Shown: positions 17,105 through 56,364 of the stretch, piece by piece
How the letters are laid out: each line of letters starts with the position of its first letter
How positions within the stretch are numbered: position 1 is the stretch's first letter
Source of the DNA: a virus
Length of the DNA stretch: 61,384 nucleotides
Virus record (IMG/VR): IMGVR_UViG_3300037961_004286
Span: 1 to 61,384 of that record
Reading direction: 5' to 3' (one strand)
Notes under the pieces: generated by a model
Told to the model about the DNA's origin: nothing
Databases searched by the model: none
What the model saw: the letters and a program-made list of their open reading frames with translations, nothing else
Position numbers and translations under genes: made by a program

Positions 17105-17112
17105 TATTTATA
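17105..17112 (-). promoter_or_regulatory. late promoter TATAAATA 4 nt before a minus-strand ATG
   Basis: Read on the minus strand, TATAAATA runs from 17112 to 17105, followed by TAAT and the ATG at 17100. The 4-nt spacing equals that of five plus-strand late genes and suggests a leaderless transcript. Confidence 0.6.
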
Positions 17113-18800
17113 TGTGCGGAATAAATGGTATTACATCTCCTAATCAATTCGATAGAATAGATAAGATGATGGAGTACACTTATAAAAGAGGACCTGATGG
17201 AAAAGACGTTTATAGTAATGATGACGTTACATTTGGTCATAACCTTCTTGCTATATTTTCTGACATAGATAAATCTAAACAACCATATCATTATGAAGAT
17301 AGTGTACTTATCTTTAATGGTGCTATCTATAATTATAAAGAACTTGATGAATGGAATAGTCAATCAGGTACAGATACTGAAGTACTAATAAAAGGTTTAT
17401 ATCATTATGGTATAGATTTTATGAATAGATGTGAAGGTATGTGGGCTTTTGCATTTTATAGAAAAGGTTATACTATTATATGTAGAGATCATTTTGGTAT
17501 AAAACCTCTTTACTACAGACATAATGGTAATGAGTTAGTATTCTCATCTTCTATAAATGCTTTAGAAGTAGAAGATAAAAAACTTGATATGTTTGCTTTT
17601 AGTTTATACAATGCTTTTGGTTATGTTCCTGGATATCTAACTCTACTAAAAGGTTGTTACAAACTATGTCCAGGAGAATACATTACACATACAAAAGATA
17701 GTTTTAGTTCTGGTAATCTTTGGTATAGTAAAAAGTTTAGTATAGGTGAATATAATAAAGAAGAGTTTGTTTCTAAACTAGAACAAGCAGTAAAAAAGAG
17801 CTATGTAGGAATAAGACAGAGAGGTATCTTTTTATCAGGAGGACTTGATTCAACCTCTGTAGCTCATTTTCTTGGTGAAAAAAATACTTTTACTAATAGA
17901 TATACAGCAATAGATGAGCAGGTTAATGATGATGCTAACGTTGCTAAAAAAATGGCAGATGATTATAAATTTAACCATGAAGAGGTTATTATTACTCCTG
18001 AAATATTTTACGATAACATAGACGAATCCTTAGATAGCTTAGAACTTCCTGTGTTTAATAAATCTACTCCTTCTTATTTTTATATGAATAAAATAATGAG
18101 ATCTAAAAATACTATAGTAACTTATTCAGGAGACGGTGGAGACGAAATGTATACAGGTTACTCTGTTCATGGTCAATACGGTAACTATGAAGATCCTATA
18201 GAAGATCACTTTGAAACTATAAGCTGGAAGAAAAAGAAACAATTAAAGTTTACTAATGACAGTCTTTATATGACTAAGCAAAAATATCTATCTTATATGC
18301 ATAACTGGTTTCCTAAAAATGTATTCGGAAATGATCATATCAATAACTGTTTATTTGTTGAAATGATTACTAGAGTATCAGAAGATTTTTTAACTAGAAA
18401 TGATAAGTTTGGTTCTAATTTTGGAATGGAAGGTAGATTTCCTCTACTTAATTTGCCTTTCTATATGTATGTTATGTCTATTCCTTCTAATATTAAGATG
18501 AAAAATTTATCTATAGAAAATTTTAAACCTGGTGAATATAAATTTTTAGCTAGGAACAGTTTAAGTAATATCTTACCTGATTATGTTACTACAAAAAGTA
18601 AGTCTGGATGGTCTATTCCTGATGCTGAATGGAGAAAACAAGAAGATAAATTTATATCTAAAATGACAGATATAATTAAAGAGCCTCTCAATAATAATTT
18701 AGATAGTATTATTGATTGGAACTCTTCTAATGGACCTAAAACTTTTTATGCAGCTGTATTTCTTAAACAATGGTTGAAGAAGCACTCTATCAGCTTATAA
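17112..18800 (+). CDS. asnB: asparagine synthetase (glutamine-hydrolysing) AsnB-like
   Basis: The 562-residue protein begins MCGINGI, exposing the catalytic Cys2 of a class II glutamine amidotransferase after Met removal, with RGPDG and NGAIYNY typical of AsnB. The synthetase domain follows with the PP-loop SGGLDSTS (about 245) and the GDGGDE-type segment SGDGGDEMYTGY. It would make Asn, or amidate another carboxylate, using Gln and ATP. The ATG lies on the divergent late promoter of the GIY-YIG gene, and no Shine-Dalgarno is visible. Confidence 0.9.
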   Translation: MCGINGITSPNQFDRIDKMMEYTYKRGPDGKDVYSNDDVTFGHNLLAIFSDIDKSKQPYHYEDSVLIFNGAIYNYKELDEWNSQSGTDTEVLIKGLYHYGIDFMNRCEGMWAFAFYRKGYTIICRDHFGIKPLYYRHNGNELVFSSSINALEVEDKKLDMFAFSLYNAFGYVPGYLTLLKGCYKLCPGEYITHTKDSFSSGNLWYSKKFSIGEYNKEEFVSKLEQAVKKSYVGIRQRGIFLSGGLDSTSVAHFLGEKNTFTNRYTAIDEQVNDDANVAKKMADDYKFNHEEVIITPEIFYDNIDESLDSLELPVFNKSTPSYFYMNKIMRSKNTIVTYSGDGGDEMYTGYSVHGQYGNYEDPIEDHFETISWKKKKQLKFTNDSLYMTKQKYLSYMHNWFPKNVFGNDHINNCLFVEMITRVSEDFLTRNDKFGSNFGMEGRFPLLNLPFYMYVMSIPSNIKMKNLSIENFKPGEYKFLARNSLSNILPDYVTTKSKSGWSIPDAEWRKQEDKFISKMTDIIKEPLNNNLDSIIDWNSSNGPKTFYAAVFLKQWLKKHSISL

Positions 18801-18821
18801 GAAAAAAATATTACTATACAC

Positions 18822-18829
18822 TATAAATA
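18822..18829 (+). promoter_or_regulatory. late promoter TATAAATA upstream of the tmRNA acceptor segment
   Basis: A perfect TATAAATA lies just before the first base of the predicted tmRNA acceptor piece. Initiation 5 nt downstream would start the RNA at about 18834. Confidence 0.5.
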
Positions 18830-18833
18830 TATT

Positions 18834-18902
18834 ATACAAGGTTTATGATCGTGTATAGAATATACGGGCTGGACGCGGGGGCAGTACCCGCCGCTTCCAC
18901 CA
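18834..18902 (+). ncRNA. ssrA: tmRNA acceptor (3') piece of a circularly permuted ssrA gene
   Basis: The segment ends with a tRNA-like 3' half: T stem GCGGG (18875-18879) pairing with CCCGC (18887-18891) around a 7-nt loop, acceptor strand CGCTTCC (18892-18898), discriminator A and an encoded CCA (18900-18902). The acceptor strand pairs over 7 bp (one G-U) with GGGAGCG at 19105-19111. TTTATGATCGT (18842-18852) pairs with ACGTCATAAA (19127-19136) with one bulge, and ATTATACAA (18831-18839) with TTGTATAAT (19151-19159). The T loop reads GGCAGTA, not the usual TTC-type loop. The order acceptor piece first is that of permuted alphaproteobacterial and some cyanobacterial tmRNAs. The 5' end is approximate. 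Confidence 0.85.
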
Positions 18903-18914
18903 TAAGGACATTGA

Positions 18915-19103
18915 ATGGAGATTATTTGGCATATATTGTTAACCGCTTGTCTAAATTCAGAGTGCAGAACTCAAGATGTACAGTGGTTTGAAAACAAAAA
19001 TACTTGTGAAGCAACTAAAAAGCTTTATGAAGAGATTCCTATAGACGGAAACTGGACAAGTGTTAATTATATATGTAAGCCAAAAGACTCAGTGTCTTTA
19101 TGA
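18915..19103 (+). CDS. small ORF filling the intervening segment of the permuted tmRNA gene
   Basis: The ATG at 18915 follows AAGGA (18904-18908) by 6 nt, and the stop ends one base before the mature 5' end of the tmRNA coding piece (19105). The 62-residue product has a short hydrophobic N terminus and Cys at about 13, 17, 30 and 54, with the DVQWFENKNTC and NYICKPKDS segments. It resembles small Cys-containing proteins I associate with marine phages, possibly exported. Translation would require the uncleaved precursor or a separate transcript. Confidence 0.55.
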   Translation: MEIIWHILLTACLNSECRTQDVQWFENKNTCEATKKLYEEIPIDGNWTSVNYICKPKDSVSL

Positions 19104-19104
19104 T

Positions 19105-19289
19105 GGGAGCGAACTAGGATCGACAGACGTCATAAAAATATGCGTAGATTTTGTATAATAAAAGTAACTGCAAAACGCAAGTCTACTTTTGCTTCAATCC
19201 TTAGCACGAAGAGAGAAGTTACTTCCTCAAGTGCTCAGGCTCTTGCAGCGATTGCCTAATCGAGTTAAGTACGATTAGCGGGGTTTTGG
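19105..19289 (+). ncRNA. ssrA: tmRNA coding (5') piece with tag reading frame
   Basis: The 5' end GGGAGCGAACTAGGATCGAC matches the tmRNA 5' tRNA-like consensus and pairs with the acceptor piece. A resume codon is placed at GCA (19170-19172) after AGTAACT. From there the frame stays open for 29 codons to TAA at 19257-19259 and ends in Ala-Gln-Ala-Leu-Ala-Ala-Ile-Ala, a typical small hydrophobic proteolysis tag. TAATCG and CGATTA (about 19256-19277) form a hairpin that includes the stop codon. A 29-residue tag is long, so the true resume codon could be later in the frame. The 3' end is approximate. Confidence 0.8.
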
Positions 19290-19326
19290 AGGTTTTTCCT
19301 GGCAACAGAAAAAACCTTCTTTTTTT
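19290..19326 (+). terminator. intrinsic terminator of the tmRNA transcript
   Basis: AGGTTTTTCCTG (19290-19301) and CAGAAAAAACCT (19306-19317) form a 12-bp stem with one mismatch, capped by a GCAA tetraloop and followed by a T run to 19326. Confidence 0.9.
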
Positions 19327-19328
19327 GT

Positions 19329-19336
19329 TATAAATA
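19329..19336 (+). promoter_or_regulatory. late promoter TATAAATA before hsp20
   Basis: A perfect TATAAATA lies directly after the tmRNA terminator and 52 nt before the hsp20 ATG. The leader would contain the short palindrome CCGATAATCGG (about 19344-19354). Confidence 0.6.
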
Positions 19337-19388
19337 TATTGACGCCGATAATCGGGTCACTTTAAACTGTCCAATAATGGAGGTATTA

Positions 19389-19856
19389 ATGACAGGAACA
19401 TTTGCATTTCCTAGGAACGTTTTCCTAGGTTTCGATCACATCTTTAACGAACTAGACCATATTACTAAACATGCTCAGGATACTTATCCTCCGCATAATG
19501 TTGTAAAGGAAGATGATCTTCATTACATCTTAGAAATGGCTGTTGCTGGTTTCAAAGAAGATGATATTACTATTGAACTGAAAGACCACATTCTTACTGT
19601 AGAAGGTTCTCGAGATAAACGCAGAGAGCAAGAAAAGTATATTCATAAAGGTATTTCAGCTCGCAAGTTCAAAAAGTCATATAGACTGTCCGAATATACG
19701 GAAGTAGTCGGAGCTAAACTAGAGGATGGAATTCTTGCTATTGGTTTAGAAGTAGTCCTTCCCGAAGAGAAGCGTCCCCAATTGATCAAAATTAACGCTG
19801 ATACAAAGGGGATTAAAAATGACAGCACTAGCACTAAGAGGTTATTCACTTCTTAA
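19389..19856 (+). CDS. small heat shock protein, Hsp20/alpha-crystallin family
   Basis: The ATG at 19389 (MTGTFAFP) is preferred over the in-frame ATG at 19377 because GGAGGT lies between them at the right distance. The 155-residue protein has an alpha-crystallin domain at about 40-130 (YILEMAVAGFKEDDITIELKD, then a GILAIGLEVVLPEE end close to the usual G-I-L motif). It would act as an ATP-independent holdase. Hsp20 is common in marine T4-like phages. It is followed by a coupled chain of very small ORFs. Confidence 0.9.
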   Translation: MTGTFAFPRNVFLGFDHIFNELDHITKHAQDTYPPHNVVKEDDLHYILEMAVAGFKEDDITIELKDHILTVEGSRDKRREQEKYIHKGISARKFKKSYRLSEYTEVVGAKLEDGILAIGLEVVLPEEKRPQLIKINADTKGIKNDSTSTKRLFTS

Positions 19857-20588: not shown

Positions 20589-21059
20589 ATGACTGATAAG
20601 TTATGGAAAAAGGTTAGTAAAATGGATTTAGGAAACCCTATAATCACCGCTCTAGTTGGGTTGGTGATTTTTTATATTGGACTAAAAACGTTTTCTGGAG
20701 GCATGAAGTCGATGGGAAATATGGATCATTTGTCTTGGTTTACAGGTAACATTTTTTATATGTTTATCGGTGGCATTGTTATGACTTTGTTATGGCAATC
20801 TTCTTCATTATCTACAACAGCTATTATTGCTTTAGTAGCTTCAGGAGCTATTCCATTACCTGCTGCTATAGCTTGTGTATTAGGAGCTAATATAGGTACC
20901 ACAGGTACTATTTGGTTAGCTGGTTTACTAGTGTCAGATGGAATGCCAAAAGGTGATACTTTACGAATAGCATTGGCTCATACAGGAGTAAATTTAGCCA
21001 TGGCTGCTACATTACTACCTTTTGTAAGTCATATAGCTAAGTTTTTGCAAAAATTCTAG
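20589..21059 (+). CDS. half-size Na+/phosphate cotransporter-like membrane protein
   Basis: The 156-residue protein has three or four hydrophobic segments and the NaPi-II signature QSSS in LLWQSSSLSTTAIIALVASG, followed by ACVLGANIGTTGT, the second hallmark of NptA/YjbB-type carriers. Those proteins carry two inverted copies of this unit; only one is present, so it may dimerise or act with a host carrier. It would import phosphate across the inner membrane. AGGAG lies 9 nt upstream of the ATG. Confidence 0.8.
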   Translation: MTDKLWKKVSKMDLGNPIITALVGLVIFYIGLKTFSGGMKSMGNMDHLSWFTGNIFYMFIGGIVMTLLWQSSSLSTTAIIALVASGAIPLPAAIACVLGANIGTTGTIWLAGLLVSDGMPKGDTLRIALAHTGVNLAMAATLLPFVSHIAKFLQKF

Positions 21060-55140: not shown

Positions 55141-56364
55141 ATGAATTTACCTACCCCTAAAGAAGTTTTTGCTAAAAACAAGATGATTTATCTTTCACAA
55201 GCTATCAATAAAGATACTTGTAGACAGTTAACTGAAAGAATGTTCTCTCTTAAAAAAGAAGGTAAACTTGTTCAAGATGAACAATGTCCTCTTTCCTGGT
55301 CAGTTTATGGTGACGAGGTTTTTGATAAAATTTTAGCTGACATGGCACCACATCTGTCTGAACAATTAGATATTGAATTGTTACCAGCTTATACCTATGC
55401 TAGAATATATCAAAATGGGGAAGAGTTAAAAAGACATAAAGACAGACCTGCTTGCGAAATATCAGGAACTATTACTTTAGGTTATGATGAGGATAGTATG
55501 TTATGGCCTATCTTTATGGGTAAAGATGATGATCCGGTAGGAGAAGCTGTTTTAATTGAAGTAGGTGATCTATTAATGTATAGAGGTACAGAAATGGATC
55601 ATTGGAGACCTCCTTACAAAGGTAAATGGCAAGTTCAATTATTTTTTCATTATGTTGATAAAAATGGACCTCACGCTGAATGGGCTAGAGATAAAAGAAA
55701 TGAATTTTTCAAAGGTACAGATGATCGCTTAGGGTATGAAGTTAATTACAATGGTGTAATGCTTAAGACGACAGATTTTGATTTTCCTGGAGTAAGTTGT
55801 TTTCATAGCAATTTCAATCCCGAGTATACATTCTCAAAAGAAGAATGTGAAAAAATAATTTCTTTAGCAGATCAAATGTATGGTGACAAAGCTAAAATAG
55901 GTGATAAAGGAGGTTCAGGAGTTTACAATCCTAATATTAGAGCAGTAGATAATTATAATATAGAATTAAATGATAAAAATAGATGGATTTTTGATAAAGT
56001 TATTAGAGCGGTTGGTAAAGCCAATTCAGAATATTATAAATTTAATTTAATGGGTATAAATCATTCTATTCAATTACTGCATTATAAATCTTCTGAAAAA
56101 GGTCATTACGATTGGCACATGGATACAGGTTCAGGATCAAACTGTACAAGAAAAATATCTATATCTATACCATTAACAGATAGAAATTCTTATGAAGGTG
56201 GTGACTTAGAAATTAATGATGTTGTAGGAACAATTAAAGCTATTGATGAGCAAGGTTCAATTTCTTTCTTTCCTAGTTTTTTGTCACATAGAGTTTCACC
56301 TGTTACAAAAGGTGAAAGATGGGTTATGGTTATTTGGGTAAACGGTTCGGATAGATTCAAATAA
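55141..56364 (+). CDS. tandem 2OG-Fe(II) oxygenase
   Basis: The 407-residue protein holds two oxygenase domains. The first (about 1-185) has LKRHKDRPACEISG (HxD) and MDHWRPPYKGKWQVQLFFHY (distal His and Lys). The second (about 215-405) has HYDWHMDTGSG (HxD) and FLSHRVSPVTKGERWVMVIW (distal His and Arg), as in PKHD-type hydroxylases. Lying between fibre genes, it may hydroxylate virion proteins or surface glycans; the substrate is unknown. Confidence 0.82.
   Translation: MNLPTPKEVFAKNKMIYLSQAINKDTCRQLTERMFSLKKEGKLVQDEQCPLSWSVYGDEVFDKILADMAPHLSEQLDIELLPAYTYARIYQNGEELKRHKDRPACEISGTITLGYDEDSMLWPIFMGKDDDPVGEAVLIEVGDLLMYRGTEMDHWRPPYKGKWQVQLFFHYVDKNGPHAEWARDKRNEFFKGTDDRLGYEVNYNGVMLKTTDFDFPGVSCFHSNFNPEYTFSKEECEKIISLADQMYGDKAKIGDKGGSGVYNPNIRAVDNYNIELNDKNRWIFDKVIRAVGKANSEYYKFNLMGINHSIQLLHYKSSEKGHYDWHMDTGSGSNCTRKISISIPLTDRNSYEGGDLEINDVVGTIKAIDEQGSISFFPSFLSHRVSPVTKGERWVMVIWVNGSDRFK

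Follow-up and report, generated by a model that had tools for sequence, protein, structure and literature searches.

Permuted tmRNA spacers have so far been viewed as short waste from the precursor. The accessible text of the 2025 tmRNA database paper describes how tRNA-processing enzymes cleave such precursors to give two pieces that pair, and reports, for the nominally archaeal GCA-2688965 sp002688965, a tRNA-Ala in a permuted tmRNA spacer, termed a unique feature (PMC11915505). Among phages, the accessible part of the report on phage Melnitz counts 402 that bear a tmRNA, of which 53 have the two-piece form, 50 of these being marine or aquatic; Melnitz itself, whose host is a gammaproteobacterial OM43 strain, has a permuted tmRNA of the alpha type (PMC9004378). 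A phage-borne permuted tmRNA as such is therefore already published. What appears to be new in the locus described here is a protein gene nested in the spacer of a permuted tmRNA. Term searches of the accessible text of the database paper, which includes RefSeq viruses, revealed no such arrangement (PMC11915505), the passages retrieved from the Melnitz paper make no mention of an ORF in the Melnitz spacer (PMC9004378), and nothing comparable was found in the other, mostly non-subscription, literature searched.

The window analyzed here is a stretch of 61,384 nucleotides of viral DNA. The permuted tmRNA that the initial annotation had proposed at positions 18834-19289 is borne out by the Infernal search (cmscan) with the permuted Rfam models, in which RF01849 (alpha_tmRNA) matched 18791-19320 on the + strand with 88 bits (E 1.6e-22, cut-off 50) and RF04321 (tmRNA_permuted) matched 18841-19259 on the same strand with 72.4 bits (E 5.5e-12, cut-off 47), both exceeding the curated gathering cut-offs. 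ARAGORN called no tmRNA gene in the window. These results support the identification of an alpha-type, permuted and probably two-piece tmRNA on a T4-like phage contig. The locus consists of the following features:

18822-18829, + strand: TATAAATA, predicted promoter-like element, T4-late-like (exact match, just upstream of the acceptor half)
18834-18902, + strand: acceptor (3', tRNA-like) half, with T arm and acceptor stem (RF01849/RF04321)
18892-18898, + strand: acceptor strand within the acceptor half, CGCTTCC from 18892
18900-18902, + strand: encoded CCA, end of the acceptor half
18904-18908, + strand: AAGGA, predicted ribosome-binding site of gene X (kept in nested relatives, 6 nt before the ATG)
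18915-19103, + strand: gene X, 62 aa, filling nearly the whole 202-nt spacer (translation, relatives, dN/dS, spacing)
19105-19330, + strand: coding half, with the mRNA-like domain and the 3' pseudoknot region (Rfam match to 19320, stem pairing; 3' end approximate)
19105-19111, + strand: 5' acceptor strand of the coding half, GGGAGCG
19170-19259, + strand: tag frame AKRKSTFASILSTKREVTSSSAQALAAIA followed by TAA, 29 codons read from the sequence, with GCA at 19170 and the stop at 19257-19259

The acceptor half with its encoded CCA, which ends at 18902, lies 5' of the coding half, which starts at 19105, and the two are joined by the 7-bp acceptor stem that the initial annotation had recognized, GGGAGCG from 19105 pairing with CGCTTCC from 18892 and including G3-U70, the identity pair of alanine tRNAs. 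At pair 4 of this stem, the window has A-U versus G-C in its closest sisters, L004 and L005, a compensated change. Cofolding of the halves, with the acceptor piece starting at 18834, produced a 14-bp cross-half helix (18834-18847 with 19143-19156), so that a long helix between the halves stands as originally described, but not its division into helices of 10 and 9 bp; this helix depends on where the acceptor piece starts, being recovered from 18837 or earlier but not from 18841. The cofolding energy of the window halves was better than that of 98.7% of shuffles; the number of cross-half pairs was unremarkable, being reached by 17% of shuffles.

The spacer (18903-19104) had been taken as filler. 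To judge from its sequence and that of its relatives, it is instead a conserved small protein gene, denoted X, inside the tmRNA. The 62-codon ORF covers 94% of the spacer, an extent matched by 0 of 1000 shuffles (p=0.001). Its start codon is 12 nt past the CCA, with the AAGGA sitting within the tmRNA trailer TAAGGACATTGA (CCACCATAAGGACATTGA in nested relatives), and its stop codon, TGA at 19101-19103, is followed by a single base and then by the coding half. Relatives of X in IMG/VR include 62 sequences at 52-100% identity and at least 328 by profile. Between the window and L004, X differs by 17.5 synonymous and 5.5 nonsynonymous changes (dN/dS 0.046), and in other nested pairs dN/dS is mostly 0.09-0.4, rising up to 0.6 in a few, a substitution pattern which indicates that X is under purifying selection. 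Nineteen residues, four of them cysteines, are invariant among 29 sequences. AlphaFold predicts the fold of X with confidence (mean pLDDT 91.5), as a beta-beta-alpha-beta arrangement. Sequence searches of Pfam, PHROGs, NCBIfam and PDB yielded nothing significant, including no similarity to endonucleases or recombinases, and comparison of the model with PDB folds gave no significant match; among viral folds, the matches were weak (best E 0.005) and involved small phage proteins that are themselves uncharacterised.

Very probably, then, a protein gene has taken over the spacer of a functional permuted tmRNA gene of the alpha type, with one transcript giving rise to both products. A single promoter located just upstream would drive a precursor of roughly 0.5 kb that comprises the acceptor half, gene X and the coding half. 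X could be translated while the precursor is still being transcribed and the coding half is not yet there to pair, or alternatively, from the excised spacer RNA, in which the distance of the start codon from the CCA would leave X readable. Host RNase P would cut at 19104/19105, where the coding half begins, with 3' processing at the CCA, such that X is removed and the two paired halves remain as the presumably active tmRNA. Because the predicted RNase P cut falls just past the X stop codon, the excised piece would be a complete mini-mRNA. Furthermore, since X would lie in the loop closed by the acceptor stem once this stem has formed, translation and folding may be expected to compete.

The same geometry recurs in at least 24 viral contigs, namely, 23 fetched loci and L008, so that an assembly artefact, which would have to arise in more than 20 independent contigs, was rejected. 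In all 23 fetched nested loci, a single nucleotide separates the stop codon of X from the coding half. ARAGORN, which misses several nested relatives as well as the window copy, identified a permuted tmRNA around X in eleven of those it was run on (L008, L017, L020, L022, L027, L328, L329, L333, L338, L353 and L378). In L353, the X-nested tmRNA (1122-1894) closes a tRNA array with two tRNA-Met and one tRNA-Ile. The exact X-nested form was absent from the isolates of the phage collection that was searched. All pairs of the acceptor stem can form in 17 of the 17 distinct nested tmRNAs, among which pair 4 is A-U, G-C or C-G, pair 5 is of four types, and pair 6 is C-G or U-A; pairs 5 and 6 also covary among 135 viral tmRNAs, and G3-U70 is kept in all 17 nested and all 135 viral molecules. 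A stem that stays paired through compensated changes implies that the two halves still co-evolve across X.

X is also found outside this context. In a set of 90 non-redundant X loci, which the window layout entered via L003, 23 were nested, 17 lay within 2 kb of a tmRNA but in a different order, and 50, some of them at contig ends, had none detected (L008 was entered among these tmRNA-less loci, yet is nested by Rfam and sequence). Thus, ~44% of the non-redundant X loci are nested in or near a tmRNA, and the larger share of X genes that are free of a nearby tmRNA indicates that X does not need nesting. Among the other orders, X lies upstream of the tmRNA in Melnitz, L018, L059 and L324, and downstream in L009. 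The C-terminus of nested X, S[VM]SL, is encoded by the tmRNA leader GTGTCTTTATGAT, and free X mostly differs in this region; the same leader is also common among viral tmRNAs without X.

These observations bear on the possibility that X and the tmRNA are coupled, with X acting in ribosome rescue or, alternatively, with translation of X gating tmRNA maturation as a switch, in which a ribosome reaching the stop codon of X would cover the 5' acceptor strand. The invariant single nucleotide that, in every nested locus, separates the stop codon from the acceptor stem would fit such a connection, as does the proximity of X to tmRNAs in other orders. However, the position of the stop is mostly set by the shared tmRNA leader (..TTTATGAT/GGGG), the same spacer is used by unrelated ORFs, and X mostly occurs without a neighboring tmRNA; we consider coupling unlikely.

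Spacers filled with ORFs extend beyond the X family. We compared viral and bacterial permuted tmRNAs drawn with one and the same acceptor pattern, defining an ORF-filled spacer as one of at least 98 nt of which at least three quarters are covered by an ATG-started ORF. Such spacers were present in 23 of the 112 viral but in none of the 108 bacterial tmRNAs (Fisher p 7e-8), the median spacer being 77 nt in the former versus 28 nt in the latter, where a single spacer out of 108 reached 98 nt. Across 38 spacer clusters, ORF coverage exceeded that of dinucleotide shuffles with a combined p of 9e-17, a value that is strong rather than exact because these clusters share a short leader and trailer and are not fully independent. 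Six further spacer ORF families showed dN/dS values of mostly about 0.1-0.4. The ORFs in these spacers, many of which come from marine phages, are unrelated to one another, and those other than X had no match in isolate phages by tblastn; the contigs of the nested cases L088 and L167 also encode a T4-type gp23 capsid protein. Some of the ORFs stop 1 base before the coding half, as X does, and others stop inside the coding half, for example, at the TAG of GAAATAGG, in which case the predicted cut would remove the stop codon. Among isolates, permuted tmRNAs above the Rfam cut-offs were detected in Erythrobacter phage vB_EliS-L02 (L185, 2426-2834), where 13 tRNA genes lie within about 2.2 kb beside the tmRNA, and in Mesorhizobium phage Cp1R7A-A1 (L186, 2412-2797); the annotation of both fetched stretches lists no tmRNA.

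Two loci are informative with respect to the traffic of genes through the spacer. In L059, the sister of the nested L027 on the X tree, a short X-less spacer lies between almost identical flanks, with X immediately upstream; in L324, X is likewise upstream and the spacer is occupied by a different ORF family. On the X tree, which is built from only 62 columns, the nested label must change at least 5 times. Taken together, these layouts and changes make the spacer look like a site through which genes come and go. A broader proposal, which we consider unlikely, is that permuted tmRNA spacers of marine phages generally serve to house genes, with tmRNA processing coupled to translation: RNase P would make the spacer mRNA and, in several families, would strip the stop codon from the ORF, whereupon the same tmRNA would tag the product, while ribosomes on the ORF would delay tmRNA maturation.

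Alternatively, X and the other spacer ORFs could be mobile cargo for which the spacer is a safe insertion site, comparable to the homing-endonuclease genes in introns. The occurrence of several unrelated ORFs at the same place, the relationship between L059 and L027, and the repeated changes of the nested label speak for this reading. Nevertheless, we find this quite unlikely given that X lacks endonuclease or recombinase similarity at the sequence level (Pfam, PHROGs, NCBIfam, PDB), that cmscan detected no group I intron in the window, and that the tree has only the 62 columns mentioned above. A group I intron with a homing endonuclease was itself rejected on similar grounds, with no intron family in the window and no Pfam match for X.

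The tag of the window tmRNA reads as the initial annotation had it, with 29 codons from the GCA at 19170 to the stop at 19257-19259 and the ending AQALAAIA. The GCA resume codon aligns with UAAUUGCAAA of the relatives, and the frame runs from this alanine codon to an Ala-rich end, ALAAIA, where relatives usually end in LAA; among the viral tags read, the AIA ending was seen in the window only. The tag of the closest sisters, L004 and L005, is ANDNFAIEDYRLAA, and nested relatives carry normal tags, such as ANDNYAPEMALAA. In the nested relative L338, the tag likewise consists of 29 aa but has the ALAA ending. Being an outlier in this respect (29 aa, AIA end), the window tag may be altered in its tagging function. 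The ribosome rescue or phage-controlled tagging suggested in the initial annotation is a putative role of the locus.

This aberrant tag, the failure of ARAGORN to recognize the window copy, and the absence of SmpB from the 61-kb contig (which may be incomplete, and host SmpB could serve) would be compatible with the tmRNA being a decaying relic, broken by the insertion of X, with only X still under selection. Given the compensatory changes across X in 17 of the 17 nested tmRNAs, the universal G3-U70, the normal tags of nested relatives, and the favorable long cross-half helix in the window itself, such decay is very unlikely. An ordinary captured permuted tmRNA with a chance open frame in its spacer is extremely improbable, for although spacers are normal in permuted tmRNAs and phage copies are known, the 94% coverage attained by 0/1000 shuffles (p=0.001), the purifying selection on X, the existence of X elsewhere as a free gene, and the shortness of bacterial spacers (median 28 nt, 1/108 of at least 98 nt) all argue against it.

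The functional tmRNA gene with a nested protein gene that we favor would be a single transcription unit. TTGACA-N17-TATAAATA, in some cases with one mismatch, is found 63-68 nt upstream of GGAC in L008, L011, L022, L027, L018, L033 and Melnitz. Since TATAAATA alone occurs 7 times in the window, against 13 expected by chance, and so shows no enrichment, the promoter call relies on position and conservation. A terminator scan at the locus found none. The unit is flanked by a gene for glutamine-dependent asparagine synthase (17112-18800) and an Hsp20 gene (19377-19856). The genes of the window, including UvsX, NrdA/NrdB, a DnaB-type helicase, a primase, Hsp20, a gp43-type DNA polymerase and a baseplate-wedge-like protein, point to a T4-like myovirus, the nearest isolates of which, by DNA polymerase, are cyanophages with only 41% identity. 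Two possible auxiliary metabolic genes encode a Na+/phosphate cotransporter domain (20589-21059) and a protein that matches the 2OG-Fe(II) oxygenase and phage 'ferrochelatase' families (55141-56364). The alphaproteobacterial host that had been proposed on the basis of the tmRNA type cannot be upheld on these grounds, because Melnitz has an alpha-type permuted tmRNA yet infects a gammaproteobacterium, which makes this host inference weak.

Under the favored scenario, a single maturation step would release an mRNA and a ribosome-rescue RNA from the same precursor, and the locus offers a direct test of translation versus tRNA-type processing on one transcript. Nested genes are also a possible reason for the persistence of permuted tmRNAs in phages. 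Annotation tools miss both the small proteins and the tmRNAs; the tRNA-gene finder did not call the window copy or several of its relatives.

Compared with the tmRNAs of RF01849 and RF04321, the window tmRNA shares the acceptor-spacer-coding order, the CCA, G3-U70, the GCA resume codon, the leader and the structure; it differs in that its spacer is a 202-nt protein gene, whereas theirs are non-coding with a median of 28 nt, and in its 29-aa tag with the AIA end. A close counterpart is the ssrA of Melnitz (MZ577097), described in the accessible text as an alpha-type permuted tmRNA of a T4-like marine phage (PMC9004378). An X homologue (51% identical) is adjacent to it. In Melnitz, however, X is just upstream of the tmRNA rather than inside, and the spacer (L002, 4299-4463) contains another ORF of 54 codons (MFKWLSKTRLVVITRDYF...), which is unannotated in the record, runs into the coding half, and has relatives in L033, L038 and L119 (dN/dS about 0.3-0.6). 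In addition, a glutamine riboswitch follows the Melnitz tmRNA, and cmscan detected none in the window. The tmRNAs with group I introns and homing endonucleases, as presented in the accessible text (PMC11915505), resemble the window locus in having a protein gene in a removed precursor piece; unlike these, the window contains no intron, removal would be effected by tRNA-processing enzymes at the permutation spacer, and X is not recognizably an endonuclease. The tmRNA of GCA-2688965 sp002688965, as far as the accessible text describes it, also harbors a gene nested in its spacer (PMC11915505), but there it is an RNA gene in one case, whereas in viruses, these are protein genes in many cases.
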